Source: a virus. Taken from it: 23,606 nt of DNA. Position 1 is the first letter of the stretch. Each line of letters begins with the position of its first letter. Below the pieces are notes generated by a model. The model ran no database searches, was not told the DNA's origin, and saw only the letters and a program-made list of their open reading frames with translations. This document shows, piece after piece, positions 1,286 to 22,361 of the stretch. The stretch spans positions 1-23,606 of the IMG/VR virus record IMGVR_UViG_3300031749_000474. The stretch is one strand, 5' to 3'. Position numbers and translations under genes: made by a program.

Positions 1286-1298
1286 GCGTTCTACCTAG

Positions 1299-2436: not shown

Positions 2437-2445
2437 AGGCATCTC

Positions 2446-4107: not shown

Positions 4108-4864
4108 CTTTCTGAGTCGTTTCGTTTCGAGTTTCCGATGTTACAGCCCGAACCAGCGCCCTTGTGACGCTGGTACGGTTCAATCCAGTTTGGCGCGCCA
4201 CTTTTGCCACGGTCGCGCTTGGATCACGCGCGGCGGCCAGCAACGCCATTCTTGCCGCCGCGGAAATGGTCGTGTCGCGCATGAAGTTTGGACAACAATC
4301 CGGCGCGAGCTTGATTCCAGCGCGCTGCATCCACAACAAGGCCATGTCCAAGTCAAAGGCCAGCTTTTTGGGTGAGATTCTAGTCACGGGCAACCCAGAC
4401 CTGCGCAGGCGAAGCAGAGTTGCGTAGGGAACGCCGGTAATTCGCGCGAGGTCCTTTCCGCTCACGTAAACCGCCGCGCGCGTTCTCAGCGCCTGCATTG
4501 GCACGACGTTCGGTTTTCGCACGCTCTTGAGTAAACAGTCGCGCCACCTGGCCGCCTCGTCTGTAACGCCGCGCAGATCGAGGTCACTGCTGGTCACCAG
4601 AAGTTTCATCAGCCCGCCCTGCTCTGTGCCGGGTACGCGAAAGACGAGCCTTGCGCGTTGCAACTCATTGACGGCCTTTCGCGCGAGGCTTTTGGAGATG
4701 CCGATTGCGGAAGCCAGAAATCCCAACCCAATCTCGCAATAGCCGCTCGTGTTCGTGAAACACAGGATCACACCGTATTCGAGCCGCGCTGCGAGACTGA
4801 TTCTGAGGTCCTGCAACAGCCAGTGCGGCAGATGCAGTCCGTTCCGATCTACACTGGGGTTCAT
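4058..4864 (-). CDS. Protein with three helix-turn-helix-like segments
   Basis: A 268-aa protein of unknown name. Residues about 10-90 resemble the winged helix of phage replisome organisers (GYCEIGLGFLASAIGISKSLARKAVNELQRARLV). Residues about 125-170 look like a MerR/excisionase-type fold (VSGKDLARITGVPYATLLRL). Residues about 195-240 form a third helix-turn-helix (TVAKVARQTGLNRTSVTRALVRAV). The C-terminus is a Glu/Thr/Lys tail partly encoded by GAAAC pentamers. It starts with an ATGA overlap on the helicase stop and overlaps the next gene by 50 bases, so it is translated with the replication block. A role as regulator or replication accessory is likely; partitioning cannot be excluded. Confidence 0.75.
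   Translation of the reverse strand: MNPSVDRNGLHLPHWLLQDLRISLAARLEYGVILCFTNTSGYCEIGLGFLASAIGISKSLARKAVNELQRARLVFRVPGTEQGGLMKLLVTSSDLDLRGVTDEAARWRDCLLKSVRKPNVVPMQALRTRAAVYVSGKDLARITGVPYATLLRLRRSGLPVTRISPKKLAFDLDMALLWMQRAGIKLAPDCCPNFMRDTTISAAARMALLAAARDPSATVAKVARQTGLNRTSVTRALVRAVTSETRNETTQKDETNETKGKGGIATCD
4081..4135 (-). repeat. GAAAC-rich repeat cluster at a gene start
   Basis: Read on the minus strand, this stretch holds several GAAAC or AAACGAAAC units on both sides of the ATG of the replication protein (4107). It encodes the C-terminal ETRNETTQKDETNETK tail of the upstream protein and the KQTKRK start of the downstream one. The same pentamer occurs at the starts of four other minus-strand genes in this window. 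Confidence 0.6.
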
Positions 4865-6666
4865 GCGGTCGCAGGTTCGGATTTTCGCTCGCGGTAGCGC
4901 CTTACCGCCAGCCGTGTTATTTCACGGCGTCTTTCGATGACTTCTTCCACCTTGCCAACGGTCGCTTCCTGCCACGGTATTGCCGCCCAAGAAACCGTGC
5001 CAGCGCGCGCTTCGGTCGCCAGTGAAGGTGTCGTGACCGGCAATCCAGTCTCAGCCAAGAACCGGCTCGGCTCGACTTTCGCCGGGGTCCTCGGTGGCCA
5101 ATGCGAGGTCCGTTCGCATGCAAACGAAATGTAGAGCTCGTTCCTAGCCCGCGTTATCCCGACATATGCTACGCGCCGTTCTTCCTCTAGGTCTTCATCC
5201 CCTGCAGTGCCGGGAATGATTTGATCCTCGAACGCCGGCATATAGACGCAGTCGTATTCGTGGCCCTTTGCAGCGTGGATCGTCGAGACCACGGCACCCG
5301 ATCCTTCCGTTTCGACGGAGGTTCCAACCTCCCGCAATGCTGTGATGCAGTCGGCAAACGTTTCGCTCGACTCAACTGCGGTCCGAGCCAGTTCGATCGA
5401 GCGCGGGCTAAGATTGAACGACGCCATCAGCGTTAGCAGGTCAGCAGGTTTTTGCGCCGTCAAACCAGCGAATTCAGCCAGGTTCCTGCCAGCAGCAAGC
5501 GCCCTTGTTTGGATTTCCGACGCCCGCTCGATTCCGTGGCAAGTTTCAAGGAACGATAACGCCGCGTAGTCGTTTGTCGGGCACTCAACAGCGCGGGCAA
5601 GCAGCATTGCTACCGTCCAGTCTTCGGGCAGGTCCACCCTTTTACGCTGGGCTACTTGGACCCCGAACGATCTGAGCTGTTCGGCCATCAGTCCGACAAG
5701 GTGGTTTGTGCGCACAAGTACGGCGCACGATTTGCCAGCCGCGAGCTGCGCCCTGAGCTCTTGCGCGAGCCATCTCGTTTCGTCGAACTCGTTTGCGTGC
5801 CTAACGGCAATTGCGATTCCTCTTTCGCCGCTTTCGCTGAGCGTTTTTTGCGGAATTCTGATCTTGTTGTGCGCAATCAGGTTATTTGCAGCCCAGCAGA
5901 TCATGCCGTCCGACCTGTGATTGACCGAAAGGTTGATCACTGCGGCCTCGGGTTGAGTTGATCTTGCCCGGCGCAACATCACGCCTGCATCAGCCCCGCG
6001 GAACGTGTAGATGCACTGGTCGAGGTCGCCCACAAAGAACTTGTTCGGGACCGGCAACGCCGAGTAAATCTCGTCGTCAATTGCGCTGCTATCCTGATAT
6101 TCATCAACGAGAAGGTCCGTCCAAGCGATGAGCCGCCTGACGTGCTCGTTTGGTTCCTTGAGTGCGGCCAGAGCGCGCTTGAGCATGTCGTCAAACGTTA
6201 TGAGAGAATTCCGGCGCAGGTAGTTTCGCCACATGGTTACGGCGACACCGGCTGCTGTTACCGAAGTTTGATCGCTCTTCGCCGCTTCGATGAGGGCCGT
6301 CTTGCTCACCTTGATCCCTGCGTTTGCGGCCGCTTGCATCAGAAGTTGTTCAGCTTCCTGCTGGTCAATAGGGATGAGGTCTTCTTGTTCAGCCGCACGT
6401 GCTATTCTGAGTGCCAATGCGTGCAGTGTTCCAACGTAGCCCAAGCCTTTGCAGCCGAGGTCAGCAAGCCGGTTTCTCATTTCGGCTGCTGCGGCGCAGG
6501 AGAAGGTCACCAACGCGATCGCTTCGGGGCGAACGCCCGATTTGATTAGCTGTATCGTTCGCGCGATGATAGTTGAGGTTTTGCCCGAGCCCGGGCCAGC
6601 GCTTACAAGGATTACCGGCCATCGAGCTTCGACGGCCATTTGAGCTGCGTACATTGGATCTTTCAT
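4861..6666 (-). CDS. UvrD/PcrA-like superfamily 1A DNA helicase
   Basis: A 601-aa ATP-dependent 3'-5' DNA helicase by family. Motif I is AGPGSGKT (residues 23-30), motif II VDEYQDS (187-193), motif III GDLDQCIYTFRGAD (213-226), motif IV NHRSD (249-253), motif V STIHAAKGHEYD (461-472) and motif VI EERRVAYVGITRARNELY (495-512). It is shorter than chromosomal UvrD or PcrA (about 700 aa or more), mostly because subdomains 1B and 2B are trimmed and the C-terminal tail is reduced. It lies after a Rad50-like ATPase and an OB-fold protein, so it probably serves phage replication-linked recombination or restart. The leader before its ATG contains GAAACGAAGC. Family assignment is strong, exact role inferred. 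Confidence 0.93.
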   Translation of the reverse strand: MKDPMYAAQMAVEARWPVILVSAGPGSGKTSTIIARTIQLIKSGVRPEAIALVTFSCAAAAEMRNRLADLGCKGLGYVGTLHALALRIARAAEQEDLIPIDQQEAEQLLMQAAANAGIKVSKTALIEAAKSDQTSVTAAGVAVTMWRNYLRRNSLITFDDMLKRALAALKEPNEHVRRLIAWTDLLVDEYQDSSAIDDEIYSALPVPNKFFVGDLDQCIYTFRGADAGVMLRRARSTQPEAAVINLSVNHRSDGMICWAANNLIAHNKIRIPQKTLSESGERGIAIAVRHANEFDETRWLAQELRAQLAAGKSCAVLVRTNHLVGLMAEQLRSFGVQVAQRKRVDLPEDWTVAMLLARAVECPTNDYAALSFLETCHGIERASEIQTRALAAGRNLAEFAGLTAQKPADLLTLMASFNLSPRSIELARTAVESSETFADCITALREVGTSVETEGSGAVVSTIHAAKGHEYDCVYMPAFEDQIIPGTAGDEDLEEERRVAYVGITRARNELYISFACERTSHWPPRTPAKVEPSRFLAETGLPVTTPSLATEARAGTVSWAAIPWQEATVGKVEEVIERRREITRLAVRRYRERKSEPATA

Positions 6667-6692
6667 TGCTTCGTTTCGTTTTTGTTTGGGGT
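6667..6692 (-). promoter_or_regulatory. GAAAC-bearing leader before the helicase gene
   Basis: The 26-base gap between the ATPase stop and the helicase ATG reads on the minus strand as an A-rich leader ending AAAAACGAAACGAAGCA. It resembles the leader of the OB-fold gene (9490-9510): both share GAAACGAAGC preceded by CCCA-(A/C)-ACAA. No classical AGGAGG ribosome site is present, so the A-rich leader may itself help ribosome loading. Function is inferred only from position and recurrence. Confidence 0.4.
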
Positions 6693-8612
6693 TTACTTTT
6701 CTGTCCTGATTAGGGTGACTACTGGACCGCCGTCGTAAACGGCCGGGTCAGTGTCGATCCCGATAAACTGGTCAACTACGCCCTTGTTCACCAACTCGAT
6801 CATGTTGGCAATGAACTTGCGTTTATTCTCCCTGTCCAGACGGCCCATTTCGTCGAGCAGCACGAGCTTCAACGGACTGTTGTGGGCGAGCGCCGATGCG
6901 ATCGCCGCGAAAGCTACCGCCTGTTCTGTGCCGCTGAACACCGTCAGCGGAATCCACGTGCCGTTCACGATCTTCCCGAACTCGCCGTCTCGGTATGTCA
7001 GTGGCGCGTCAAGGACCGCCCCAGCTATGCTGTTCACTCGTTCCAACAAACCGCCGATCGCGGTCTCCACAGCTTTTTCCTGAATCGTTTCGAGGATTTT
7101 CACGACCGCAGCGTAGGCTTCCACCTCTGCTTTCGCTCTCCGCGATTCAAGGATCGTCTTTGCCTCTGTCCGGGCCCGTTCCCGTGCACTCAGTGCGGCT
7201 TCATATTGATTAGCCGCACCGTTGAGTCGCTTGAGAGCCTCCTGGTGTTGATCAACCAGTTTGAGTACAGCCTCGTGCGCTTCCCTGTATCTCTCGTCGA
7301 GGTCCTCAGGGAACGTCTTAAGCGATGCCGTCACGGTCTCGATTTTCAGGTCACCCTCTTTCAGGCTCCGTTCAAGCCTTTCGGCCTCGCCGATCGCTTT
7401 CTCGTATTCGGCCAACGCGTCTGCCAGCCGTGCCCTTTCTTTGCGCTCAACTTCCAACTGGCTGTTGATCTTGTCCAGCTCGTCTTGGGTCACCGACTCG
7501 AGTTCCGATGCTTGGATCAGGTCTTTGTTGATTTCGGCCAGTTTGGCGGGCTTCCAGACGCTGCCAAGTGTTCCGCATACCGGGCACTTATCCATTCGAT
7601 CGAAGTTCTCTGCATTCTCGCGGAGCTCTGCGATTTTCCGCCGCGTCTCGTTGAGCTTGTACTTGAGCTCTGCTGCCTTTCCTACGATGCCGTCGATTCG
7701 CCTGACAATCTCTTCAAACTTATCGAGATCGGGCTTTGGAACGGCCCGCAATGTTTCGATCCTCTTTCGCAGGTCCGTATTGTCAGCCGCTTTAAGTTCA
7801 ACCAGTTGTTTAGCGAGCTTGTCCCGCTTTTCAATCTGCTGCCGGTATCCTGCCCGGGTAGCATCTGCTGCCGACAATTTTGCATTGAGCTCGTTGCACT
7901 CTTTCTGGAGTTGATCGTACTGAGCTTTCGCGGCCTTTAACCCGGCGTCATTCTCGTCGGCCGCAACCACCGCCAGCCCCTGCACTGTCTTGGCCATCCG
8001 ATCGGCGTGCGCTCGCGCAACCTTGAGTTTCTCTTTAACGGTCGCAATCTGTTCCCGCAACCATTCCTGAATGCTTCCGTCAAGTTCGTGCCGTTCGCGG
8101 TCGGTCTTGTCGAGGAGGTTGACAACTTCGCGAATCACTTGTTCGTGGTCCTCGGTGTGATTCTCCACCTTGCAATTTTTCACCTCTGCAATTACCGCGT
8201 CCGGGTTCAAGGAAGACTCGCACAGCCCGAATACGTAGCGGACACGCTCTTTCGCGCCGAGTGAGAAGTAGGTCGAGGGGTCAAGTAGCACTGTTGGAAT
8301 CGGGACTTCGTCATCGCCAGACCTGGTCCACTTGCCCCGGCTGTACGTCCATTCACGTTCCACTGTGCTCTTACCGTTCCACGGTTGGTCGAACTCGATC
8401 GAAACAGCAAGGAGCGAGCCGTTGGCAAGCTGGGTAGTTCCTGACACCGTCTTGCCAAGCTCGGGCGAGTAGCCAAGCAATGCCAGCCTGATTGCGTCGA
8501 ATCGCGCCGACTTGCCCGTTGCGTTGGGTCCGGCAATGATGGTGACCGGGCCCAGCTCGTCGTTGATTTTTGCCGCCTTTAGTCCAGTGGCAGCGAGTCT
8601 CTTTATTCTCAT
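6693..8612 (-). CDS. Rad50/SbcC-like SMC-family ATPase with zinc hook
   Basis: A 639-aa ATPase. Walker A GPNATGKS lies at residues 28-35 and Walker B LVLLDEMG at 583-590, with a long helical coiled coil between them. In its middle, CPVCG (343-347) is the classic zinc hook that joins two subunits in Rad50 and SbcC. The signature-like FSGTEQA (559-565) stands where LSGGE is found in ABC/SMC ATPases. It is shorter than SbcC (over 1000 aa), as in phage homologues. The start at 8612 is chosen over an upstream reading because an AAAGGA site precedes it and the product starts MRIKRL directly before the ATPase fold. No Mre11/SbcD nuclease gene is adjacent; a metallophosphoesterase lies about 7 kb away. 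It probably acts in phage recombination or end processing. Confidence 0.9.
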   Translation of the reverse strand: MRIKRLAATGLKAAKINDELGPVTIIAGPNATGKSARFDAIRLALLGYSPELGKTVSGTTQLANGSLLAVSIEFDQPWNGKSTVEREWTYSRGKWTRSGDDEVPIPTVLLDPSTYFSLGAKERVRYVFGLCESSLNPDAVIAEVKNCKVENHTEDHEQVIREVVNLLDKTDRERHELDGSIQEWLREQIATVKEKLKVARAHADRMAKTVQGLAVVAADENDAGLKAAKAQYDQLQKECNELNAKLSAADATRAGYRQQIEKRDKLAKQLVELKAADNTDLRKRIETLRAVPKPDLDKFEEIVRRIDGIVGKAAELKYKLNETRRKIAELRENAENFDRMDKCPVCGTLGSVWKPAKLAEINKDLIQASELESVTQDELDKINSQLEVERKERARLADALAEYEKAIGEAERLERSLKEGDLKIETVTASLKTFPEDLDERYREAHEAVLKLVDQHQEALKRLNGAANQYEAALSARERARTEAKTILESRRAKAEVEAYAAVVKILETIQEKAVETAIGGLLERVNSIAGAVLDAPLTYRDGEFGKIVNGTWIPLTVFSGTEQAVAFAAIASALAHNSPLKLVLLDEMGRLDRENKRKFIANMIELVNKGVVDQFIGIDTDPAVYDGGPVVTLIRTEK

Positions 8613-8626
8613 GTTTCGTTTCCTTT

Positions 8627-9475
8627 CTAGTTTTGGCAGTTTCTCATTACCTGAATGAACAGGCTTGACACGCAAGCCTGGTAATGTTCTGGCGACATCG
8701 GCTCTTGCTTGTTTGCTGTGCGCTCGGCGTTCACCCAATCCGCCGCGTCCATGCAGCGGAGGTACGTTGTCGCCAACACGAAAAGCATCTTGTCGAGCCG
8801 TTCCGACTGCTCATTGACCAAGTCAGGCCGGGCGTGGTTATTCGATTTAGGTTTGACCGGCGCGGCCTGTTGTACCGCGCCGGTTGTGTTGGGAGCCGCG
8901 GTCGGTTGTTGTGCGTTTGGCGTAGGCGGAAGCTGTGTCTGCGGACGAATCGGCTGGCCCTGGTGTGGCGCAGGCGGTGCCACCGGCACCGGCTGTGTCG
9001 GGATCGAGGGGGGAGTGTGGACGGGTGCCGGTGCCGGTGGCTGTTGTGCTGGCTTTGGTTGGGCGTGCGGCGTTTCAGCCGCAGATTCGACTGAATTGGA
9101 TTGCACGACGCCGCAAGATGCGGCGTTCGCAGCGGTATCAAGGATAGCTTTCTCGCCGACGAAGATTTCTTTCTGCTTGACCCCGCGGTACTCGTCTTCG
9201 GACACTTTCATGCCAACAGGACCGTTCTTGCCAGAGACACAGGTTAGAATAACCTCGTGGCCGTTCCATTCACGACCTAGCTTGGACCTGTTGCTGAACC
9301 GCAGTCGGATTTTATTTCCAGAACCATCGGTAAGAATAGCTCGCTGGAGACTCCACGGTCCCAGTTCGCTATTTCCAGTGTAGTAACCTCCAACGGAATT
9401 TATTACGCCCCGAATTCCTGGAACGGTCTCGCCGGGCTCCATCTGCAAGACCTCGGCTATTGTCAGAATTCTCAT
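8627..9475 (-). CDS. OB-fold protein with Pro/Gln-rich linker, possible ssDNA-binding protein
   Basis: A 282-aa first gene of the replication block. Residues about 15-110 look like an OB fold, a five-strand barrel with alternating hydrophobics (WSLQRAILTD, NKIRLRFSNR, HEVILTCVSG). A Pro/Gln/Ala-rich linker spans about 135-210, and a helical C-terminal part (about 218-282) contains NEQSERLDKMLFVLATTYLR. OB folds commonly bind single-stranded DNA, and long flexible linkers are known in SSB proteins, but the C-terminal acidic tip of SSB is missing and a helical domain stands in its place. It precedes the Rad50-like ATPase by 14 bases, so the two are probably coupled. ssDNA binding is inferred; no catalytic motif is visible. 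Confidence 0.7.
   Translation of the reverse strand: MRILTIAEVLQMEPGETVPGIRGVINSVGGYYTGNSELGPWSLQRAILTDGSGNKIRLRFSNRSKLGREWNGHEVILTCVSGKNGPVGMKVSEDEYRGVKQKEIFVGEKAILDTAANAASCGVVQSNSVESAAETPHAQPKPAQQPPAPAPVHTPPSIPTQPVPVAPPAPHQGQPIRPQTQLPPTPNAQQPTAAPNTTGAVQQAAPVKPKSNNHARPDLVNEQSERLDKMLFVLATTYLRCMDAADWVNAERTANKQEPMSPEHYQACVSSLFIQVMRNCQN
8850..9075 (-). repeat. Low-complexity Pro/Gln-rich coding stretch
   Basis: The DNA is strongly biased here (many CCG, CCA, CCC and CAG codons on the minus strand) and encodes the Pro/Gln/Ala linker of the OB-fold protein, residues about 135-208. Long open frames on the opposite strand arise from this bias and are not genes. Confidence 0.6.
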
Positions 9476-9549: not shown

Positions 9550-9640
9550 AAAAAAAAGTGTGTCTTAGCTGAACAATTGGCACGATGTTTGACACAGCAC
9601 CCAGCTTGCCAAAGGGGGGGCTAGCAATAGGCGTGCCAAT
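9525..9640. repeat. Four TTGGCA elements forming inverted pairs
   Basis: The hexamer TTGGCA or its complement TGCCAA occurs four times: TTGCCAAA at 9525-9532 and 9606-9613, ATTGGCACG at 9576-9584 and its complement CGTGCCAAT at 9632-9640. The last two form a perfect nine-base inverted repeat 47 bases apart. The pattern resembles operator half-sites for a dimeric regulator, upstream of the replication block. No regulator is identified. Confidence 0.45.
9550..9596 (-). terminator. Probable Rho-independent terminator after the surface cassette
   Basis: Reading on the minus strand, TGTGTC (9591-9596) can pair with GACACA (9559-9564), with an inner AACA/TGTT pairing, and is followed by CT then a run of eight T residues (9550-9557), AA and six more T residues. 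The stem is short and the loop large, so efficiency is uncertain. Its place between the GT2 gene and the replication block would separate the two transcription units. Confidence 0.5.
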
Positions 9641-9676
9641 GGCTTACACGGTCAGGCATCTCGTTTCCGTTGCAGC

Positions 9677-10498
9677 CTACCACTTCCACGGCCAGCGGCG
9701 GAGCTCTTTGTGCACTCTGTACAACCCACAGAGGTCGAGCCATGCTGTCCGTGCAATCCTCACAGTTGTCGTTTCGCTGTCTTTCCATCTGACTGGGACC
9801 GACGTGATTCTGAATCCCAGAGCCGAAGCCTTGAGTAGCAATTCCGTGTCCCAGAAAAAGCCTGTGTCCAAAACGCTGGGTAGAAGGCGCCGCGCGGCTT
9901 CGGTCCGAATCGCCTTGAACCCGCACTGCATGTCGCGAACCGGTGTCGCGAACATCATGCGGACCAACAAATTGTATGTACGGCTGATAAACTCTCTTTT
10001 CAAGCCACGCTGAACTATGGCCCCGCGTTCGAGTCGGGAGCCGACTGCAACGTCTGCGCTTTCGAGCGCGTCTATCAGGGCCGGAAAACAGGCCAAGTCA
10101 GTCGCCAAGTCAACGTCCATGTAGGACAGGATGTCTGCCGTACTGCCGAGCCACGCCGCCGCAAGAGCGCGACCACGACCAGGCCTGTCTGTTTCCATCA
10201 GGCGGACGCCGTCGAACTTCGCGGCAAGCCCCCTTGCCACGGTTCGCGTTTGGTCAGTTGATCCATTCTCGGCAATCACAATCTCGAACGGATAGCGTGA
10301 ATGCAGAAACTGCCAAACAGAAACAACAGCTCGCTCGAGGTAGGCCGCGCCATTGTGAACTGGCAGGGTCACGTTGACCAACCGACGATTTGGCGGGTCG
10401 CCTGTTTTCTCCTGCCGGTCGGGGTGCGGTACCGCCGGTCTAGTTAGCAGCCGCGCGGCACTGATTCCATCGCTTTCGGTTGTTTGAGGAAGTGCCAT
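9677..10498 (-). CDS. Family 2 glycosyltransferase, polyprenyl-phosphate glycosyltransferase type
   Basis: A 273-aa GT-A enzyme. The core opens with VNVTLPVHNG (residues 41-50), then ENGSTDQT (77-84), the metal- and nucleotide-binding DVD (128-130), MQCGFKA (190-196) and FFWDTELL (214-221). The QCGFK and D-T-E-L-L motifs are hallmarks of the dolichyl-phosphate glucose/mannose synthase group, which transfers a sugar from a nucleotide to a lipid carrier at the inner membrane. Unlike GtrB it has no C-terminal transmembrane pair. The ATG at 10498 overlaps the preceding membrane glycosyltransferase by 55 bases, suggesting coupling: this enzyme would make the lipid-linked donor that the membrane enzyme uses. 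The sugar is unknown. The first 40 residues are not part of the core, so a later start is possible. Confidence 0.88.
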   Translation of the reverse strand: MALPQTTESDGISAARLLTRPAVPHPDRQEKTGDPPNRRLVNVTLPVHNGAAYLERAVVSVWQFLHSRYPFEIVIAENGSTDQTRTVARGLAAKFDGVRLMETDRPGRGRALAAAWLGSTADILSYMDVDLATDLACFPALIDALESADVAVGSRLERGAIVQRGLKREFISRTYNLLVRMMFATPVRDMQCGFKAIRTEAARRLLPSVLDTGFFWDTELLLKASALGFRITSVPVRWKDSETTTVRIARTAWLDLCGLYRVHKELRRWPWKW

Positions 10499-11844
10499 GC
10501 CAAGGCCAGTGCAGTGAACAAGACGCCACAAAACAACGCTACCGAGGCGGTCTTCGACAGCCCAAGTGTCGTCCCGAGGTTATAGCTGAGCACACCGCGC
10601 CGCCATAGGTCCCAATTCCATTCGACGATGGCCCAATACCGATCCGCCGGCACAAGCGTACTGGTCAAAGAAGCCTGCAGGCAATGCAGAGCAGATATAA
10701 CTGCCAACACGATTGCTGTCCGCTGAAACATCTGTGCACCTACAGCGCAGCCTACCATTAGTAGCGGCACTATCGGCGCGAGGAGCCGAGGACCAAAGCA
10801 ATCACCTGCGGTCCAATCCCATGCGCGGCCAGAGATCACCAGCGCCGTTAAAACCGGGACACCCAGCCAGAGCCACAAACGGCGGTCGCCACCCGCAGCC
10901 ATCCGCGCGAATCCTATTACCGCCATGAACAGGAATGGACAATACCAGAACAGCCCGCGTTCTGGCCCGATCAGAAGTCGAGCCAGGATGTCAATTCTCG
11001 GCCATTTTATGGCGTAAATACCCTCTTTCATTGGCGGGAAACTGGCTTGGTAGCTGTATGGGAGCGCAAACGGCGATCCAACAGTCGCCAGGCTGTAGGC
11101 GGGTATGAGTAGCAACGGCGGAATCGCGGAAGCGATAAAACTCATTAGTTGCCCGCTCTCGCGCAGTTTTCTGTAAGCCGACAGCCCGATTGCGACTATC
11201 ACAATACCTGCTGTGTATTCGCTCGCAAGTGCAAGACCGAGGACGAAACCGGCGATCATGGCATGCGACCGGCGAAGGGTGCCGGTGCCGAGTTCAAGGA
11301 TGCAGATTGCCAGGGCGATCAACCCCATGACGAGCGTGTGGCTCCAGAGCGCGCCGGTAAATGCCAATGGCATTCCACCAAGCCAGGCCCCAACCACGCA
11401 TGTAAACGCCGTCCTAGGATCGAAACGGGTACTCAGAAATTTGTAAGCTGCGACACCACCAAAGGCGAAAGCCAGCGCCAAGGTTGATGCGCAGGTTATC
11501 CAACTTGTCGCCAGCCAGCCAGTCCGACTGTCAAGGGGTGTCCCGACCGCTTTCAGTAAGGCGGAAGCGATGTAAAACGGCGCAAACCCTACAGCAATGG
11601 TTCCGGGTGCTTTATCGCTGTAATAACGTCCGTTCACGACCGCCTTGTCGGTTGTGTTGGTGTGCCATTGATCAATTTCCAAGGTCCCGTGTTCGACAAG
11701 CGCGTGCAGTGCGTCAAGTCGTGATACTGGCGTGGCGAAACGATACTGCCGCTGGTGCACGAATGCGGCAGCCCAGAAAAGCCCAAGCCAGAGTAGGATC
11801 AGGCCAATCCTATGCCGGCCCTGTTGCGCCTTGTCGCCAGCCAT
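10444..11844 (-). CDS. Multi-spanning membrane glycosyltransferase, GT39/ArnT-like
   Basis: A 466-aa very hydrophobic protein with about ten to twelve predicted membrane segments, starting with IGLILLWLGLFWAAAFV. Between the first two segments lies a loop with RLDALHALVEHGTLEID and YYSDKAPGTIAV; the SDK-P-G motif and preceding acidic residue are typical of GT-C enzymes of the PMT/ArnT type that take a sugar from a polyprenyl-phosphate carrier outside the membrane. The last third contains GRAWDWTAGDCFGPRLLAPIVPLL, also common in this group. The ATG at 11844 is preferred to a GTG two codons earlier. It overlaps both neighbours, so it is part of one translated set with the GT2 enzyme. Acceptor unknown: pilin, lipid or polysaccharide are possible. 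Confidence 0.8.
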   Translation of the reverse strand: MAGDKAQQGRHRIGLILLWLGLFWAAAFVHQRQYRFATPVSRLDALHALVEHGTLEIDQWHTNTTDKAVVNGRYYSDKAPGTIAVGFAPFYIASALLKAVGTPLDSRTGWLATSWITCASTLALAFAFGGVAAYKFLSTRFDPRTAFTCVVGAWLGGMPLAFTGALWSHTLVMGLIALAICILELGTGTLRRSHAMIAGFVLGLALASEYTAGIVIVAIGLSAYRKLRESGQLMSFIASAIPPLLLIPAYSLATVGSPFALPYSYQASFPPMKEGIYAIKWPRIDILARLLIGPERGLFWYCPFLFMAVIGFARMAAGGDRRLWLWLGVPVLTALVISGRAWDWTAGDCFGPRLLAPIVPLLMVGCAVGAQMFQRTAIVLAVISALHCLQASLTSTLVPADRYWAIVEWNWDLWRRGVLSYNLGTTLGLSKTASVALFCGVLFTALALAWHFLKQPKAMESVPRGC

Positions 11845-12265
11845 ACACACAATTTACGATCCCAGTTAACAGTAGCAGCGCAGCTATTGTGATCGCAGCG
11901 AATTCCGCAGCCGATTCGGACATGCCAATCCAGCCCCATGCAGAGCCAAGGCAGGGGCAGCGCCCTCGCCCGCCAGCGAGCCAGAGCGCTGCATGATACC
12001 AGAGGAACTCGGCTCCAACGGTGGCCAAGATAACACCCCTTAGGAGCGTGGATGAGGTCCAGAGAAGCGCAGTCGCGACCGCAACCTCAGCGGATCCGCC
12101 AACGAAATGTATCCAAGACTCCCGCACATGCAAGATTGGGTCTGTAAGATCAATCTCTGGCGGGTGTTGGAGAAACGTCACAAGCTTCAAGGCCGCCGTA
12201 ATGCAAAGCACAACTACGCTCGCCTTTACGGCAGTCTCAAGCCAGCGCCTGTCGTAGGAGCCCAT
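11810..12265 (-). CDS. MauE/DoxX-like redox-associated membrane protein
   Basis: A 151-aa inner-membrane protein with four predicted membrane helices (about residues 10-27, 55-72, 74-97 and 115-140). The loop RCPCLGSAWGWIG carries the Cys-Pro-Cys pair seen in the MauE/DoxX-type family. MauE is needed for correct disulfide formation in the small subunit of methylamine dehydrogenase; relatives are thought to pass electrons to or from periplasmic thiols. The ATG at 12265, eight bases after the preceding stop, is preferred to a GTG at 12304 that would overlap the previous gene. The gene directly upstream encodes a 12-cysteine exported protein, a fitting substrate. Family call moderate to good; role inferred. 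Confidence 0.75.
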   Translation of the reverse strand: MGSYDRRWLETAVKASVVVLCITAALKLVTFLQHPPEIDLTDPILHVRESWIHFVGGSAEVAVATALLWTSSTLLRGVILATVGAEFLWYHAALWLAGGRGRCPCLGSAWGWIGMSESAAEFAAITIAALLLLTGIVNCVYGWRQGATGPA

Positions 12266-12273
12266 TGCTGCTA

Positions 12274-12699
12274 CTATTCCGGCGGCGTTCCAGTGCCGAC
12301 GCACCCGGTGCCCTCGAATTTGCTATTTAGCTCTCCGGACAGAACCTTCGATATTTCATGACCGCCACAATATTGGCAATAGCCGGTGCATCGATAGGTA
12401 CACGCGTCTCCGGGCTCCGTAACCGTCATTCCAGGTTCATATGTACCCGCCGGTACCGATACATAGCGCGTTGACGTCCATGTGACCGTGGCTTTTTTGG
12501 TGCATTTGAAGCACAGATCGCACTGGACACCACCAAGTCCATAGCAATATGGGTGCACGCAACTGCTATTTAGGTCTCGACAGTTCGAGGTGTTTGTAGC
12601 GTAGCAAGGCGATCCAATTGCAATCTGGTTCGGAACCAGTCTGAACAGGAACGCAATGCCAAGCACAGCCAGCAGGGGTATGATCGCTCGCTTTTGCAT
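12274..12699 (-). CDS. Exported 12-cysteine protein of unknown function
   Basis: A 141-aa protein with an N-terminal hydrophobic segment (IIPLLAVLGIAFLFRLV, residues 6-22) that is a signal peptide or membrane anchor. All 12 cysteines follow it, in clusters such as CDLCFKC and CTYRCTGYCQYC. An even number of cysteines outside the membrane suggests up to six disulfides or a bound metal. Between the clusters a stretch (ATVTWTSTRYVSVPAG) looks like beta strands. The family is not recognised. It is followed at once by a MauE-like membrane protein, so the two probably work together. It does not resemble MauA beyond the cysteine count. Confidence 0.7.
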   Translation of the reverse strand: MQKRAIIPLLAVLGIAFLFRLVPNQIAIGSPCYATNTSNCRDLNSSCVHPYCYGLGGVQCDLCFKCTKKATVTWTSTRYVSVPAGTYEPGMTVTEPGDACTYRCTGYCQYCGGHEISKVLSGELNSKFEGTGCVGTGTPPE

Positions 12700-12708
12700 T
12701 GTCGTATG

Positions 12709-13698
12709 TTAGTTCTTGTACTCATTACCTGACATGCGCCTTCGTTGAGCCACAACAAAGGCCACGGCGCAGCCGAGCACAATTGCCGCGCCGAAATAAT
12801 AAAACGCCGGATTTTCACGCATTCGCTGCTGACGGTTGATGCGTCTGAGGATTGCGGGGTCGATTTCAGGCATTGGAATTAGGCCCGTAGGGGTTTCGAG
12901 CCATTTTGTCTTACCGCGAATAACGACGGTTTTCGCACCGGCAGGAACGCGAGGCTCAAACCTGCTTTTAGGCAAAGGATCGCCGTTGACCGCCATTCTG
13001 TAATACATGAACCCATCAAGGTTCGGGTTTTCACGCGGTGGACGTAATACAACGTGCTTTACGGTGAGCAAGGCAGAATTTGTTTCGCCGTTCTTGCCGT
13101 ATTCGAGAGTAGCGCGTCCTTCTATTTTATACGGACCGCTCTTTTCAAGGAGCGACCGAGTCCATTCAATGCTACCTACTGCGCCTTGCTCATTTCTGAT
13201 GAGCCGGCCGGTCACAACCATTTCGGGCTTGTTGGTCGGTCCGCAGGTCCAGCGCAAGACGTCCTTCTCCACTATTTCGGGTTTTAGGCCAAACGGGATT
13301 CCAAGTCCAAGAGAAAGGAGCCTTCCGCCTTGGATTTCGATCACCGTGTCGGTCAGCGTCCACCCGGACAATTCTGGCGTTTCGACCTTCGTCAAAGTCT
13401 GCGTTTTCGGCCCCATTCCGGCGCCAACGTACCATACGATGCCATCATATGAGCCTGCGCCCTCTTCGTAATGTTGGAACTCGCCATCGCCGAATACTTC
13501 CTCAGCCACGGGCCCGATCCTGATGAAACAGGCATCAGGTTGCCAGCGGAACAAGTAGTAGCTCGGGGGTCCAATTGGATTCGTAAGCCGGCACATGATT
13601 TCGCCGGTTTTAGGCGGGTCTTGCAAGAACTCCGCTATGTCGATTGCAGCGTTGCAACTAATCGCTGCGATTATTGGAATGATCTTAAACAGCTTCAT
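12709..13698 (-). CDS. Exported protein with C-terminal membrane anchor, unknown function
   Basis: A 329-aa protein with a signal peptide (KLFKIIPIIAAISCNAAI), a large extracytoplasmic part rich in beta-type sequence (about residues 25-270) and one C-terminal membrane helix (FYYFGAAIVLGCAVAFVVA, about 298-316) followed by a basic tail, so it would sit in the inner membrane with its bulk outside. A Cys at residue 15 could be a lipobox-like site, but the context ISCNA is weak. It starts with an ATGA overlap on the pseudopilin stop, meaning the two are translated together. No family or catalytic motif recognised. Confidence 0.7.
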   Translation of the reverse strand: MKLFKIIPIIAAISCNAAIDIAEFLQDPPKTGEIMCRLTNPIGPPSYYLFRWQPDACFIRIGPVAEEVFGDGEFQHYEEGAGSYDGIVWYVGAGMGPKTQTLTKVETPELSGWTLTDTVIEIQGGRLLSLGLGIPFGLKPEIVEKDVLRWTCGPTNKPEMVVTGRLIRNEQGAVGSIEWTRSLLEKSGPYKIEGRATLEYGKNGETNSALLTVKHVVLRPPRENPNLDGFMYYRMAVNGDPLPKSRFEPRVPAGAKTVVIRGKTKWLETPTGLIPMPEIDPAILRRINRQQRMRENPAFYYFGAAIVLGCAVAFVVAQRRRMSGNEYKN

Positions 13699-14471
13699 GG
13701 CTGTCTCCTGTATTTTTCAGCTAAAAAGACCACATTCTGCAGCCGTATCAAGTCTGCCCTATCCTCAGCCGTTTCAGCGGCCTTCCAATATGTTGTGCGG
13801 TCTTTGAACCGTTTGGGAGCGCGCCAAATCCACGTCTCAAGGTGTCCGTCACAGAAGGACAGCACTCCAGCCTGACCGTGCCGGTCCGATGGCATGTTTA
13901 CCCATCTGTCGTCGGGGTACGGCCAAACGAGGAAATGGCCGTCGTCAATGCTATCTTGATGTTCGCAGATGAACGAGAGCAGTCTTGCCGGTTCTGGTAT
14001 TTGGTCCATGCGAAAGGCGACGTTCTGAACTTCGTTCGTTCTACCAGCGAGATTGCCGTTGAGCGAGTAGGACCGAACCCGTGGTTTTCGCGTCCTTGTC
14101 AAAGAATGATCCGATGGACAAACAAAAACCTGCGCTGCCTGCACGTACGGCCAGAGGCTGCCTTTCATTATCTGTTCTTGTGTCTCGTCGAGCACGGCGC
14201 TGCTGAAACCGGTCCACGAGTTTGATTCACTGCGCCACACCCTGTTCCAGACTGCTGTGTTGATCGGGAGACGGCCATCGTTCTCGTCCGCGTACATCGT
14301 CCAGCCAAGCTGAAGCTGTCGCAGGTTCGAGACGCAGCGGGCGGCTGAGGTTCGTTGCTTTGCCTTGGACGTGGCAGACAACAGCAACGACGAAAGTACA
14401 GCAATTATCGAGATTGTGACCAGAAGCTCGATCAATGTGAAACCAGTCCTCTTGCAAAAGTCGGCGCGCAT
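13695..14471 (-). CDS. Type IV pilin-like/pseudopilin protein with H-X9-DG motif
   Basis: A 258-aa protein with a class III-type leader: KRTG-FTLIELLVTISIIAVLSSLL, where a prepilin peptidase would cut after Gly10 and leave Phe11 and the conserved Glu15. A conserved N-terminal helix follows (RCVSNLRQLQLGWTMYADENDGRLP), typical of the very large pseudopilin-like family of Verrucomicrobiota, Lentisphaerota and Planctomycetota. Near the C-terminus, H198 is followed nine residues later by D208-G209, the H-X9-DG signature of this family. Function of the family is unsettled: surface fibre or secretion pseudopilus subunit. It is the first gene of a cassette of envelope genes and is preceded by a promoter-like sequence. 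Presence in a phage is unusual. Confidence 0.9.
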   Translation of the reverse strand: MRADFCKRTGFTLIELLVTISIIAVLSSLLLSATSKAKQRTSAARCVSNLRQLQLGWTMYADENDGRLPINTAVWNRVWRSESNSWTGFSSAVLDETQEQIMKGSLWPYVQAAQVFVCPSDHSLTRTRKPRVRSYSLNGNLAGRTNEVQNVAFRMDQIPEPARLLSFICEHQDSIDDGHFLVWPYPDDRWVNMPSDRHGQAGVLSFCDGHLETWIWRAPKRFKDRTTYWKAAETAEDRADLIRLQNVVFLAEKYRRQP

Positions 14472-14546
14472 TTTTAACTATCCGTTTCATACGTGCGCGG
14501 TTTATGCCCCGCAAGCAAAAAATTGTGAGATTTGATTACATGCTGG
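14472..14546 (-). promoter_or_regulatory. Promoter-like sequence before the surface cassette
   Basis: In this 75-base gap, reading on the minus strand, TTGCGG (14507-14512) is followed after 17 bases by TATGAA (14484-14489), a fair match to a sigma-70-type promoter. Just upstream a run of six T residues follows the end of the RlpA-like gene, without a clear stem, so termination there is doubtful. A small palindromic element, GCGG...CCGC, lies in the spacer. A promoter here would make the cassette its own transcription unit. Confidence 0.4.
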
Positions 14547-14957
14547 TTAAGGCGATGTCGTGCCCAGCGCGGCGTGAACCGCGCACCGCCGAAGCCTTTG
14601 ATTATCCAACGACCGAATCCGCACTACAACCAGTCCAACGCGCGGATTGGCAAGTCGCCGGAACGCTGCGGCGCTGAGGTCAATTGCCCTGCCGAGGTGT
14701 TTTGCGGGCCCGCGATCTGTCACCGTAACAACGACAGATTTCCGTCCTCGGCTGACGAGAAGTTTCGCGCCGAGGGGATAATCCCAGCAAGCGCATGTGA
14801 GCGCGTCTGGATCAAATCGTTTCCCGTTGGCCATGATTCTGCCCCGGTGCGAGTTACCGTACCACGATGCGATTCCTGTAGTTTCGGTAGGCTCGCTGCC
14901 GATGGCCGGTTGAAGCAAAGCTGATGCGGCAATGAACAGAAGCGCGGCAGTTTTCAT
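14547..14957 (-). CDS. Exported RlpA-like double-psi beta-barrel protein
   Basis: A 136-aa protein with a signal peptide (about residues 1-20, ending LLQPAIGSE) and one RlpA/DPBB domain (about 27-118). Diagnostic motifs are GIASWYG (28-34), GRIMANGKRFDPDALTCA (39-56), PLGAKLLV (61-68), TVTDRGP (78-84) and RAIDLSAAAFRRL (90-102). In RlpA of Pseudomonas this domain is a lytic transglycosylase acting on glycan strands without stem peptides. The SPOR domain of full RlpA is missing. The gene overlaps the previous stop by ATGA. In a phage it may aid lysis or cell-wall passage; it is the only exported wall-active candidate in the window. Role inferred. Confidence 0.88.
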   Translation of the reverse strand: MKTAALLFIAASALLQPAIGSEPTETTGIASWYGNSHRGRIMANGKRFDPDALTCACWDYPLGAKLLVSRGRKSVVVTVTDRGPAKHLGRAIDLSAAAFRRLANPRVGLVVVRIRSLDNQRLRRCAVHAALGTTSP

Positions 14958-15313: not shown

Positions 15314-15533
15314 ATTGGATCATGTCATAGAATGTGTCCTGTTGATAGGTGCGCGCAGCGCGTTGCGCTTTGAATACCACAAGCATGAGCTCGACCAGCC
15401 AATCAGGTAGCGGATGGGGAAGCTCGATGCCGTAATGCTGGTTAATGAGTCCTGTCCACGATAGACCGATGTTCCGATGCGACTCGGAGGGGGGGCCGTA
15501 GATGTGACTTTTAGGACCTGGCGCTTCTGTCAT
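15222..15533 (-). CDS. DUF6378-like phage protein
   Basis: A 103-aa soluble protein. Its core, HRNIGLSWTGLINQHYGIEL, then WLVELMLVVFKAQRAAR and DTFYDMIQYAQFAY, fits the small helical phage family often annotated DUF6378. Conserved points are the W/F-x-x-L after a Gly-rich opening, the helical MLVVFK-x-x-R and the D-x-x-x-D-x-x-x-Y near the end. No enzymatic role is known for the family. The start at 15533 forms an ATGA overlap with the metallophosphoesterase stop; a longer open frame upstream would overlap that gene. The C-terminus is polar. Confidence 0.72.
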   Translation of the reverse strand: MTEAPGPKSHIYGPPSESHRNIGLSWTGLINQHYGIELPHPLPDWLVELMLVVFKAQRAARTYQQDTFYDMIQYAQFAYQHQREDPNAKQKPAAEAAYCSRSA

Positions 15534-16828
15534 TTTGTCAGTCTGTGAAACGGGGTGAAAGCGAAGACGCCGTGATGCGTGTCCACCAAAAATCCGACTT
15601 GGCAAGGGGCCGCGAATCTGCCGGCTGAGTGATCATATTCTGTCGTGCCGGTCAGCGCGCCGTTCACTATCACCCGATTTTCCAAGAACACCGGCGTGTG
15701 CCAGTGGCCAGTCACAACATAATCAAATCTTCTTCGGTTCATTCTGCGGATTGCTTCCCGCCCAACCTCGCGCTGAATGCCATACCACGGCACCCCCATC
15801 CAAGCCCGAACCGTATCTCCATGCTCACACAAGAACCGCCATCCATTGATGTTCGCCATTATCTTCATCCCGGGGGAGGAAATGCAGACCACGTTTGGCA
15901 AGGATCGAAGGCGAAGCTCAGCCAGTGCATATGTCAGGTATCCCATGTTGTATTCGGCCTTGCGTTTTGCGACCGGCTTCGGCGTTAGCCGCCCGTGATT
16001 ATCGGCACCGACTTCCCAGAAGTCCACATGGCTGAAGTGGGCCGCGACAGTGGCGACAGCCCAGGAGAGAAGCGAACCCGCGCGCGCTACCTGTACCGGT
16101 GTCGGAAATTCGGCGTTCGCCCTGAGTTCTTCCCGAATTTCGCCGGAAATCCAATCGCCGAGACCAATTATGGCACAATGGTCAATTGCGTACGCGCCAC
16201 GCTGGCAGATCACCCATTTGATGAACGCGCTGACAATCCGTTCGATCCCGGCCTGCGCCGCCTTCCAATTGAATCTGTTGCTGAATTCTACCTCGGACCC
16301 GCGGATAATTTCGCCGATATGCCAATCGCCAAGGAGCAGAACTGCGGAAACCTTCGGTTTTGATCGGGGCTGGGGTTTTATCAGCCTCACCTTTGGCGGT
16401 TCAATTTCTCTGACTGCGTCTCGGAGCCGGTCCATCGTTTCCTCCCGGGAGCCGAGCCGCTCCTTCAGAGATGCAATCTCGGTCCGCAGCATCGTTATCT
16501 GCTTTCGCAGAAAGTATTCGATAGGCTTCGTTTCTGAGGCCTCCCCAAGCGTCGTTGGACCAGCGCATATGGCGCGGTCTCGGTATTGTCGGCTTGCTTC
16601 ACCGCTCGATCCAGCTACCCATCTGACAGCAGCGCGTGCGCTTTCGATGCTCGGGAACAAGTCCGGTCGCCTGTCAGCCAGGGTCCTTGCGATCGTCTTG
16701 AACGGCAACGTTGGGTTTGCCGCAAGCGCAGCACGCACTATAATTGCGCGCTGGCGTTTCCATTCTGCCGCGCCACGCGCCAGTGGCGTTGTGGGTTTCG
16801 TTTCGTTTCGTTTCGTTTCGACGCTCAT
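15530..16828 (-). CDS. Metallophosphoesterase with N-terminal helical/HTH-like region
   Basis: A 432-aa protein. The calcineurin-like core begins near residue 160 and shows the metal-binding set: LLGDWHIGE (165-173), GLGDWISGE (222-230), GADNHGR (274-280), CEHGD (334-338) and GHWHTP (374-379). The GDWHIGE opening is shared with phage metallophosphoesterases and with SbcD/Mre11 nucleases. Residues 25-75 are helical with an HTH-like pattern, and 100-145 form a short coiled coil. It starts at 16828, overlapping the tail-tip gene stop by ATGA; the first codons are followed by five perfect GAAAC repeats. Substrate unknown: DNA ends, RNA or nucleotides are all possible. A partnership with the distant Rad50-like ATPase is conceivable but unproven. 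Confidence 0.85.
   Translation of the reverse strand: MSVETKRNETKPTTPLARGAAEWKRQRAIIVRAALAANPTLPFKTIARTLADRRPDLFPSIESARAAVRWVAGSSGEASRQYRDRAICAGPTTLGEASETKPIEYFLRKQITMLRTEIASLKERLGSREETMDRLRDAVREIEPPKVRLIKPQPRSKPKVSAVLLLGDWHIGEIIRGSEVEFSNRFNWKAAQAGIERIVSAFIKWVICQRGAYAIDHCAIIGLGDWISGEIREELRANAEFPTPVQVARAGSLLSWAVATVAAHFSHVDFWEVGADNHGRLTPKPVAKRKAEYNMGYLTYALAELRLRSLPNVVCISSPGMKIMANINGWRFLCEHGDTVRAWMGVPWYGIQREVGREAIRRMNRRRFDYVVTGHWHTPVFLENRVIVNGALTGTTEYDHSAGRFAAPCQVGFLVDTHHGVFAFTPFHRLTK
16795..16819 (-). repeat. Five tandem GAAAC repeats in a coding start
   Basis: Five perfect copies of GAAAC (minus strand) stand six bases after the ATG of the metallophosphoesterase gene and encode ETKRNETK. Because a pentamer cycles through three frames, the protein repeat is irregular while the DNA repeat is exact, showing that it is the DNA, or slippage during replication, that shaped it. 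Confidence 0.85.
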
Positions 16829-19692
16829 GGTTCCTCTGTGCCGATCGGCCTTGCCCGACCTGATTGATCGAGATAATAGTGCTCGCTCACGATCGGCGAA
16901 TTGCTCAGGCCGGCGGCTGCCGCGTAGGCGTGCAGGGTCTTGTCCGAGTAAACTGCAATCGGTCCAGAATAGAGGGTCCACTGACCGGCCTGCGGTTGGC
17001 CGTAGAGTTGCGTTATCTGATAGTAGATTGACGCGCCAGACGTTTTTGAAGTCAGCGTGATGGTTTTCGGATAGGTCTTGTACGGTCCGCCAACCGGATC
17101 GACAACTGGCGATAGCGCCGTGAGACCTTCGCCGATCGACAGGGTTCGCGTCGAGCCGCCGATGCTAACCTCTGATTGGGTGACAAGGCCCGATTCGTCT
17201 GTTACGATCCCAAACAAACGCCAGCAGCCGGGCTGCGGGAGGGTGAAAGTCGCAACAACGGTTTTTTGAGCAAGACGTTCTCGCGACGAGAACAGCACAA
17301 CCTCGTTCGCGCCCATCCTGCCCACAAGTTTGATCTCCGCGAGGTAACTGTCCGAGGCACTCGCCGAGAAGGACAGCCTGAACGTCGTATTCGGCGGGTA
17401 CTCGGTGTCCCAGCTAATAGGGCCGAAATCGGTTTCGCTCGCGAGTCGCGCTTCGGCCCCAAGCCATTCAACCTTCGGTGCAAAGATGTTCGCGAACGTG
17501 AATTGGACCGGATCGGTTTCGGACAGCTCGGACATTCCGAACTGGTTAATACTCTGAGCTTTCACATTTACGGTCGCCCCCGTGCGTTGGCATGCAGCGA
17601 ACAGCGGATGCTTATAAACAGCCAACGACTTCCGCCACAAAACCCATGCAATGTCTCCGGCGTGAAGGTACATCGGCTGGCGACCATCGCAGCCGCGCTT
17701 GACCCTTAGACGGTACGTGCCATCGTTTAGGTAAATTCGCCTGACCGACATCACCTCGAACTGTGACGGATCGTTTGCCTTGAACACGACACAGAGCAGC
17801 TTGTTGTCGGCAACGTCATCGCTGTCCAATAATGCTTCAACCTTTGCCCAGTCGTCGGTCGGCACCGAGGCGTCAGGCGTAATCCTGATGCCTTCCGACC
17901 AGTCTTCATACGGGTTTTTCGTCACAACGCCGCCAGTATCGTTCGTTTGAGTCTCATCGGGTCCGGGCGACTGGTAGCTGAACGTCCATACGTCAACCCA
18001 CGTGACTTTCACCCCGTCGATGTTGTATCCGGTTCCGCCAAGCCCTCGGATGTCAACCGTTTGGTCGTTCACCAGACCGTGCATGTTCGGGTACGTGCAC
18101 ACGGTGGCAACGTTATTCTGCCGTTTGCGCCATGCAGTTTGCACCGCTGGTTGCCAAACGCCGTGGTCTTGAGAGATCGTGCCGCGCACGCCACAGCTTT
18201 GCTGAGTCCCGAGCAAGCTGTACTGCTGCTCACCATCAGTTTGCCACCAGATGTTCCAGCCGACCGTGTTCATGTCACGGCGGTGCACGAGCACACCCAG
18301 CGCGCACGGCACGCCAGCAATGCAAGCCGGTACCTGCCATACCTGAACTTGGCCTTCCTCCGGGATTTCGGCTTCGCACTGTGCCTGTCCGACCGGGTGC
18401 GAAGCCGCGGTCAAACGCTGCGCAACCGGTGCCGACCGCTCAAGCTCCCATTCGATCTCGACGCTACCAGAATCGGGGCTGCCCCAGCGCTTCGAGATGC
18501 AACGCGCGACAAACTGCATTCCGAGAGCCTCATGGCTGATTTTGAAAAGCGAGCCGGGTTTGATTTGATCGGTCTTTTCTGCGCGTGCAGTAAGCGTGCC
18601 GGAAAGGGATGGCCATGCATTCAGTTTTAGCATCTCGTTCGCGAACGTCGTCGCCTGCTGCGCCCAATTTATCCACGGCATGTCATACGTTCTCGCCCGA
18701 GGCGCCCCGGTCAATGCCCAATTGGCGCGGTCAATTGCCTTCACGCAGCTATCCTTCCAGGCTCGCGCGCCGTCGCTGTAACGTACGCTGATCTCGTTAA
18801 ACGACGCCTCAGCCGTCTGCGCGTCGAACGACAGTTCGTCAACAAGGTCATGTATCGTCACCGTTTGCAGGGTGCCGGTGATCTGTTCGCTATGCGGAAA
18901 CCTGCCAGCAATGACTTTGCCGCTCGGGTCCCACCTGAACCAGCCGTCATAGTAGCTCGTAAGGTGGCGCAGAAAGTCGCGGATTGTCGTACCCTCTTCG
19001 AGGATCGGCGATACGTAAGAATCTTCTGACCGCGCCATCAGCGCGTTCGCCGTTTCGACCCACGACGTTGTGTCAATCACCGAGGCTGGCAACCCCAATC
19101 CACTAGCAGGGTTCGTGATCAGTTCCGCAGCAGCAGCAAGGGGGTTCATTTGCCCGCGCTCGTCCTCATGCTGTAGGTCGCCGGTGAGAATCTGTTGGTC
19201 AGGCCATCGCCGCATGATCAGCTCGATGTTCGGGGCAGCCTGTCGCATTCTGCCAAGGTACCAGTGGACGAGCTCGACTACAACGAACCCGCGGCATGGG
19301 GGGTGTCCGAGGTATTTTAAGACGCCCATTGGATGAACATCTTGGTCCAATGTGCCGCGATAGAAGAACATTGTGCCATAGCCGGGAACATATATTGAGA
19401 AGGGATTCGACTTATCCCCCAGCCACACGGTAAAAATCTGCCAGTACATGGAAGGCGGCGCATTCTGTTTACTTGATTGATGCGTGAGAACGCACTGCCA
19501 GATTCGTCCGCCGTGCGCTACGATCGCCCCGGAGTCGTACGTCTTGTTTTCTTCCCAGACCACGTATCCCGGCCAGATTAACTTGCCATCACAAACGACG
19601 CCCATTAGGTGCGTCACGGGGCCAACGCACACTACTCCGGCTACGTGGCCGTAATAGTCGTAAACGCCTGCGGATGCTTTATTCCACGACAT
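16825..19692 (-). CDS. Tail tip/host-attachment protein (gp15/J-like)
   Basis: A 955-aa protein in the place of the tip or host-specificity protein of phiJL001-type and gene-transfer-agent tails. The N-terminal region, DGKLIWPG and YVPGYGTMFFYRGTLDQ, and the central NWAQQATTFANEMLKLNAWPSLSGTL resemble the phage tail protein family. Two carbohydrate-binding-like modules stand out: a CBM5/12-type insert (about residues 45-87, aromatic positions W, Y, W, W) and a C-terminal chitobiase/hexosaminidase C-terminal-like domain (about 864-941, TYPKTITLTSKTSGASIYYQ). Fibronectin-like segments lie between (about 690-850). These parts probably contact the host surface. ATGA overlaps join it to its neighbours. 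Confidence 0.85.
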   Translation of the reverse strand: MSWNKASAGVYDYYGHVAGVVCVGPVTHLMGVVCDGKLIWPGYVVWEENKTYDSGAIVAHGGRIWQCVLTHQSSKQNAPPSMYWQIFTVWLGDKSNPFSIYVPGYGTMFFYRGTLDQDVHPMGVLKYLGHPPCRGFVVVELVHWYLGRMRQAAPNIELIMRRWPDQQILTGDLQHEDERGQMNPLAAAAELITNPASGLGLPASVIDTTSWVETANALMARSEDSYVSPILEEGTTIRDFLRHLTSYYDGWFRWDPSGKVIAGRFPHSEQITGTLQTVTIHDLVDELSFDAQTAEASFNEISVRYSDGARAWKDSCVKAIDRANWALTGAPRARTYDMPWINWAQQATTFANEMLKLNAWPSLSGTLTARAEKTDQIKPGSLFKISHEALGMQFVARCISKRWGSPDSGSVEIEWELERSAPVAQRLTAASHPVGQAQCEAEIPEEGQVQVWQVPACIAGVPCALGVLVHRRDMNTVGWNIWWQTDGEQQYSLLGTQQSCGVRGTISQDHGVWQPAVQTAWRKRQNNVATVCTYPNMHGLVNDQTVDIRGLGGTGYNIDGVKVTWVDVWTFSYQSPGPDETQTNDTGGVVTKNPYEDWSEGIRITPDASVPTDDWAKVEALLDSDDVADNKLLCVVFKANDPSQFEVMSVRRIYLNDGTYRLRVKRGCDGRQPMYLHAGDIAWVLWRKSLAVYKHPLFAACQRTGATVNVKAQSINQFGMSELSETDPVQFTFANIFAPKVEWLGAEARLASETDFGPISWDTEYPPNTTFRLSFSASASDSYLAEIKLVGRMGANEVVLFSSRERLAQKTVVATFTLPQPGCWRLFGIVTDESGLVTQSEVSIGGSTRTLSIGEGLTALSPVVDPVGGPYKTYPKTITLTSKTSGASIYYQITQLYGQPQAGQWTLYSGPIAVYSDKTLHAYAAAAGLSNSPIVSEHYYLDQSGRARPIGTEEP

Positions 19693-19698
19693 ACAAGC

Positions 19699-19884
19699 TC
19701 ATTTCTTGCCGCCAATGTCAACCTCGACTGCGTATACGCCTGTTACATTGCAAATCCAACGGACAGCGACCTTCCGGTCGCCAACAAACCACGGAATTAC
19801 CGTTGCTTCTTGGTTTGTATTCAGCTCCACTGGCTCAACGTTTGCCATCTCCAGTTCGTCGTTGACGTTGGGCGAATCATTCAT
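19699..19884 (-). CDS. Small tail-module protein, 61 aa
   Basis: An acidic N-terminal third (NDSPNVNDELEMANVEPVEL) is followed by a compact beta-type part (ATVIPWFVGDRKVAVRWICNVTGVYAVEVDIGG). No family recognised. The start at 19884 is chosen for its ATGA overlap with the NlpC/P60 stop; the tip gene follows six bases after its stop. Tight packing and good codon continuity with neighbours support a real gene, probably a tail-tip assembly accessory. Confidence 0.65.
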   Translation of the reverse strand: MNDSPNVNDELEMANVEPVELNTNQEATVIPWFVGDRKVAVRWICNVTGVYAVEVDIGGKK

Positions 19885-22357: not shown

Positions 22358-22361
22358 ACGG

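Follow-up and report, generated by a model that had tools for sequence, protein, structure and literature searches.

The gtrABC operons of P22 and of Shigella phages are morons of temperate phages, which change the surface of the lysogen (PMC11436027). They combine a polyprenyl-phosphate sugar synthase (GtrB-like) with a membrane transferase, and the same pairing is found in the six-gene cassette described here, which is part of a virus record of 23,606 bp analyzed at its full length (the window). Unlike gtrABC, the cassette additionally encodes a pilin, an anchored exported protein (the anchor), a Cys-rich exported protein and a MauE-like membrane protein. No match to a GtrA-like (flippase) family was obtained among the cassette proteins, and the assignment as a gtr operon was rejected. 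The acceptor of the sugar is probably a protein and not O-antigen. The mau cluster resembles the cassette in a different respect: in both, a MauE-like membrane protein adjoins a small exported Cys-rich protein, a pairing which is to be read as an analogy. For MauE a role in disulfide formation of the methylamine dehydrogenase beta-subunit was proposed (PMC7794033). Since none of the record's annotated proteins was recognized as a subunit of methylamine dehydrogenase, as MauD or as the product of a cofactor gene, a mau operon was rejected as well.

The phage pilin further resembles the pilins of the Verru_Chthon cassettes (TIGR02596, TIGR02599), with weak matches to this Verrucomicrobial pre-pilin family. 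With about 17 bits against cut-offs of 70 and 256.5, and with other genes in the neighborhood, these cassettes were also rejected. Finally, polyprenyl-phosphate-sugar dependent protein glycosylation, consisting of a dolichol-phosphate mannose (DPM) synthase and a GT-C transferase, is reflected in the GT2 profile and the multi-pass membrane partner of the cassette. Unlike the transferases of those systems, the membrane partner (GTm) matched neither a solved transferase nor a Pfam family, besides a weak match to NF047440; its class (GT-C) and its acceptor are therefore guesses.

Gene organization and phage context

The cassette consists of six intact ORFs at positions 9677-14471 (Table 1), which overlap or lie no more than about 9 bp apart. 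The pilin and anchor genes overlap by 4 bp, and the Cys-rich gene follows the anchor gene after 9 bp. Whether the genes for the Cys-rich protein, MauE, GTm and GT2 overlap or just adjoin each other is decided by the starts chosen, the start codon of GT2 being uncertain (10531 to 10381). With 0.53-0.59 the GC content is the same as in the phage. According to PHROGs, the left 9.5 kb and the right 9 kb of the record are composed of phage genes, with the cassette in between: the first start of the early block is located at 9475, and rlpA ends at 14547, 75 bp from the pilin gene. The record is a temperate phage or prophage.

Table 1. Features of the 23,606-bp virus record.
Feature	Position	Strand	Evidence
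Integrase	within 1..9475	+	PHROGs
Excisionase, DnaC-like loader, replication initiator, DNA helicase, SbcC-like ATPase	within 1..9475	-	PHROGs
GT2, polyprenyl-phosphate-sugar synthase type	9677..10498	-	PF00535 70.5 bits
GTm, multi-pass membrane protein, probable GT-C type glycosyltransferase	10444..11850	-	chromosomal homologs; weak NF047440
MauE-like membrane protein, CxC motif (CPCLG)	11810..12304	-	PF07291 E 3e-5
Small 12-Cys exported protein (putative cargo)	12274..12699	-	positional counterpart of chromosomal Cys-rich proteins
Exported protein, N-terminal signal and C-terminal TM anchor	12709..13698	-	weak homology to L142
Class III pre-pilin (pseudopilin), Verrucomicrobiota type	13695..14471	-	N_methyl PF07963 29.6 bits; subfamily found at GTm loci
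RlpA/DPBB protein, phage gene immediately preceding the cassette	14547..14957	-	PF03330
Exonuclease-like protein, tail tip, NlpC, hub block	15530..23573	-	phrog_284, phrog_1101, phrog_329, phrog_778

The initial annotation had postulated a six-gene block with moron-like layout, whose products point to the envelope and of which none is a normal phage part. Place, strand and near-zero spacing of the six intact ORFs were confirmed, as was the position of non-phage genes between the tail and early blocks with phage modules on both sides, and the moron-like layout and the envelope theme hold as well. Two regulatory elements proposed at the same time were not recovered: the 75-bp gap before the pilin gene contained no promoter-like match of sigma-70 type, a consensus that may not fit this phylum, and the 201-bp gap after GT2 contained no terminator-like match. 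In folding, neither gap surpassed shuffled sequence. The search against Rfam gave no match, PADLOC had zero matches on the cassette proteins, and no repeat of at least 9 bp is common to both cassette ends.

The order hub-NlpC-tail recurs in Verrucomicrobiota prophages of one order with a tail identity of ~24-33%, and the host of the phage therefore probably belongs in or near this order, which would be Limisphaerales/Pedosphaerales. A tail match was found in 49 of 320 genomes, for some of them to the C-terminal domain only. In the stretches read of these distant prophages no match to the glycosyltransferases or the MauE of the cassette was detected. Two of the loci (L168 and L172) carry an integrase-like gene within a few kb of the tail gene with no cassette in between, and are too distant to represent an empty site; a near-identical cassette-free phage was not found. 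The only close relative is a sister phage (L002), which is 97% identical. Its contig carries rlpA and stops inside this gene at 14585, 114 bp short of the cassette. This end might mark a site of difference among related phages.

Counterparts on Verrucomicrobiota chromosomes

The combination of genes had been called unfamiliar in the initial annotation, together with the suggestion to search for the proteins in chromosomes and phages. For phages this impression stands: no second copy of GTm was detected by tblastn in the phage and plasmid collections, tblastn with the pilin and with MauE gave no match in phages, and viral scans with the anchor, the pilin and the SbcC-like ATPase singly returned zero relatives. 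A GTm-profile scan of IMG/VR was likewise negative; it used two short peptide patterns, of which the first misses the phage's own GTm. For chromosomes the impression does not hold, as the cluster recurs among the genomes sampled from a single order of Verrucomicrobiota. GTm homologs occurred in 19 of 196 genomes of this order, and in a phylum-wide sample only 10 of 388 genomes reached an E-value of 1e-20 for GTm, so that the cluster is found mainly here. In a limited collection of literature on MauE or pseudopilins and Verrucomicrobia, the titles and opening lines of the abstracts do not describe it.

Many of the fetched GTm loci carry alongside a GT2 (45-53%), a MauE-like protein (about 23-33%) and a pilin, most of whose full-length matches are 45-51% identical; ORFs for exported proteins, either Cys-rich or anchored, are interspersed. 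Thus pilin, MauE, GTm, GT2 and the Cys-rich protein, the latter matched by position only, are adjacent on chromosomes as well. Locus L126 encodes a pilin, a MauE::anchor fusion, a Cys-rich protein, GTm and GT2, and locus L129 a response regulator, pilin, MauE, anchor, Cys-rich protein, GTm, another membrane protein and GT2. Within 17 kb, locus L138 combines pilin, anchor, MauE, GTm and GT2 with a subsequent anchor-Cys-MauE unit, which has the gene order of the phage and whose anchors belong to the phage's own group. Fusions of MauE to an exported anchored domain even occur in tandem at L200 and L201 (G111 C1 2.277-2.293 Mb), each beside different exported Cys-rich genes. In another locus (L142, 2657-4471), an ECF sigma factor is fused to an extracytoplasmic anchor-like domain and directly followed by a pilin.

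The association was also assessed by counting and lies well beyond chance expectation. The 16 GTm-positive genomes contain 61 MauE-like matches, and 14 of these lie within 10 kb of GTm (0.34 expected). Pilin matches are abundant, with about 854 in 16 genomes (17-90 per genome), and the 13 best matches of the phage pilin stand apart in score; eight of these 13 are situated within 10 kb of GTm (0.07 expected). Such counts assume independent positions and were obtained from related genomes, G031 and G111 looking like close relatives, and the p-values for co-location are therefore indicative. The bait alignment for the pilin profile search of the genome contigs included four synthetic rows resembling the pilin family, and the matches listed were confirmed against the phage pilin. 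Cluster DNA (0.42 Mb) contained 17 exported Cys-rich ORFs, against one in a background of 1.09 Mb of further Verrucomicrobiota-rich DNA. One ORF of each set looks like a frame open by chance, and L126 and L127 stand for one and the same locus.

Properties of the cassette proteins

The pilin exceeded the cut-off of the N_methyl family PF07963 (21.2 bits) and also matched TIGR02532; its best chromosomal homologs are 47-55% identical. The anchor belongs to no Pfam or NCBIfam family, reached only E 0.08 in PHROGs and had no sequence match in the PDB. It is weakly homologous to L142 (E 2e-5) and via L142 to the anchored proteins of the L138 cluster. Altogether the anchored proteins form two groups without profile match to each other, and the second, unrelated-looking group occurs at other loci. 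A C-terminal helix (residues 297-328) appears in a low-confidence model of the anchor, whose single-sequence fold is unusable (pLDDT 38).

All 12 Cys residues of the Cys-rich protein are located after the N-terminal hydrophobic segment. The Cys-rich proteins could not be reliably aligned, and the phage protein corresponds to its chromosomal counterparts in position and composition rather than in sequence. The MauE-like protein scored 24.6 bits against PF07291, slightly below the cut-off of 27. Since the motif C116-x-C118 with G120 is invariant in 14 sequences, the comparison supports a distant relationship to PF07291. The MauE::anchor fusions and the array of fusions and Cys-rich genes suggest that MauE and the anchor serve the Cys-rich partner.

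The phage GTm is 36-45% identical to the aligned chromosomal proteins and retains every invariant column. In the phylogenetic tree it nests in a 100/99 clade of chromosomal homologs with a long branch (2.01). For the GT2 family profile the best match was dolichol-phosphate mannose synthase (5mlz, E 1e-23). The phage GT2 also matches the GtrB-like phrog_841, shares 46-52% identity with the GT2s of the chromosomal clusters and retains the motifs which are invariant in the GT2s of the clusters.

Origin and possible function

The recurrent chromosomal cluster explains where the cassette came from, and its chromosomal origin is well supported by the comparison of sequences. The nesting of the phage GTm in the chromosomal clade, its long branch and the lack of another copy in the phages and plasmids searched fit an acquisition from a host chromosome that did not happen recently. 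With its open frames and the retained invariant motifs of the chromosomal alignments, the phage copy is apparently intact. We consider it moderately probable that the cassette is a captured host gene cluster which is kept for lysogenic conversion, i.e., a moron.

The motifs of GT2, GTm and MauE, together with the fusions and arrays, led us to propose a pathway of export, oxidation and glycosylation with display by the pilin, for which we infer the biochemistry and the benefit to phage or lysogen as well as the sugar acceptor and the route to the surface. GT2 would load a hexose onto polyprenyl phosphate at the inner membrane. On the periplasmic face, a GT-C-like GTm would pass this sugar on to an exported acceptor, which may be the pilin, the anchor or the Cys-rich protein. 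The MauE-like protein would form disulfides in the Cys-rich protein, and anchor and pilin might hold, export or display the latter by means of the host's own apparatus for pili or type II secretion. The cell surface of lysogens may thus be altered; the new surface, or a secreted glycoprotein, could block superinfection or aid competition.

This competitive aspect can also be given a different weight. The Cys-rich protein might be a secreted antibacterial or signaling protein, matured by MauE and the anchor and decorated by the glycosyltransferases, which could alternatively protect the producer; spread by the phage, it would then give the lysogens a competitive gain without any change of receptors. 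Most Cys-rich proteins are indeed too variable to be aligned, while the neighboring enzymes are 36-45% identical; moreover, [MauE::anchor]+[Cys-rich] units are arrayed in tandem in one chromosome, and response-regulator or LuxR-type regulators adjoin two chromosomal loci. As no immunity gene or dedicated exporter was recognized, and such a cargo is not usually accompanied by a pilin and two glycosyltransferases, we regard this explanation as unlikely.

The clear chromosomal counterparts and the single phage copy in the collections searched would also agree with a transduction accident, in which host DNA was captured intact and has no function for the phage. Six open frames, the invariant motifs kept, the operon-tight spacing, the phage-like GC content and the long branch from the known chromosomal copies argue against a fresh accident, and this reading is improbable. 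Still smaller is the probability that two phage elements were joined with host chromosome in between, so that the cassette is not phage-borne at all. The contig of the sister phage ends in rlpA by the cassette, hence no second record links the left and right parts. Nevertheless, both flanks consist of phage genes arranged as is plausible for a prophage, with a single terminal integrase, the GC content is uniform, the junctions show no repeat, rlpA and the pilin gene are only 75 bp apart, and the 23,606-bp record contains no chromosomal housekeeping gene.

The phage copy is a minimal version of the chromosomal cluster and singles out a matching set of pilin, Cys-rich protein, MauE and glycosyltransferases. 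It offers a small testable unit of a surface or secretion system whose genes are elsewhere dispersed over big genomes from mostly uncultured organisms. Lysogenic conversion would also reach beyond O-antigen enzymes and include a pathway which probably serves an exported glycoprotein. A more far-reaching interpretation, to which we give a somewhat less than even chance, is that of an undescribed surface system of Verrucomicrobiota. This would comprise a hypervariable disulfide-rich exported protein, a MauE-like oxidase with its anchored partner, glycosylation by polyprenyl-linked sugar and display by a dedicated pilin, mobilized by phages to reshape the surface of the lysogen.

Further genes of the phage

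Outside the cassette, an ORF at 14954-15313 encodes a Mom-like protein (XF1762), which is present in the sister phage, too. It matches the first 51 of 143 model positions only, and the remainder is out of the family; the ORF appears to be what is left of a DNA-modification gene. The first gene of the early block (8627-9475) encodes a protein of 282 amino acids without family in Pfam or PHROGs. At 4861-8738 the SbcC-like ATPase adjoins a UvrD-like helicase, with LmuB- and GajB-like matches in PADLOC. The best match of the helicase is the phage helicase phrog_1967, and ATPase and helicase therefore probably belong to the DNA metabolism of the phage.
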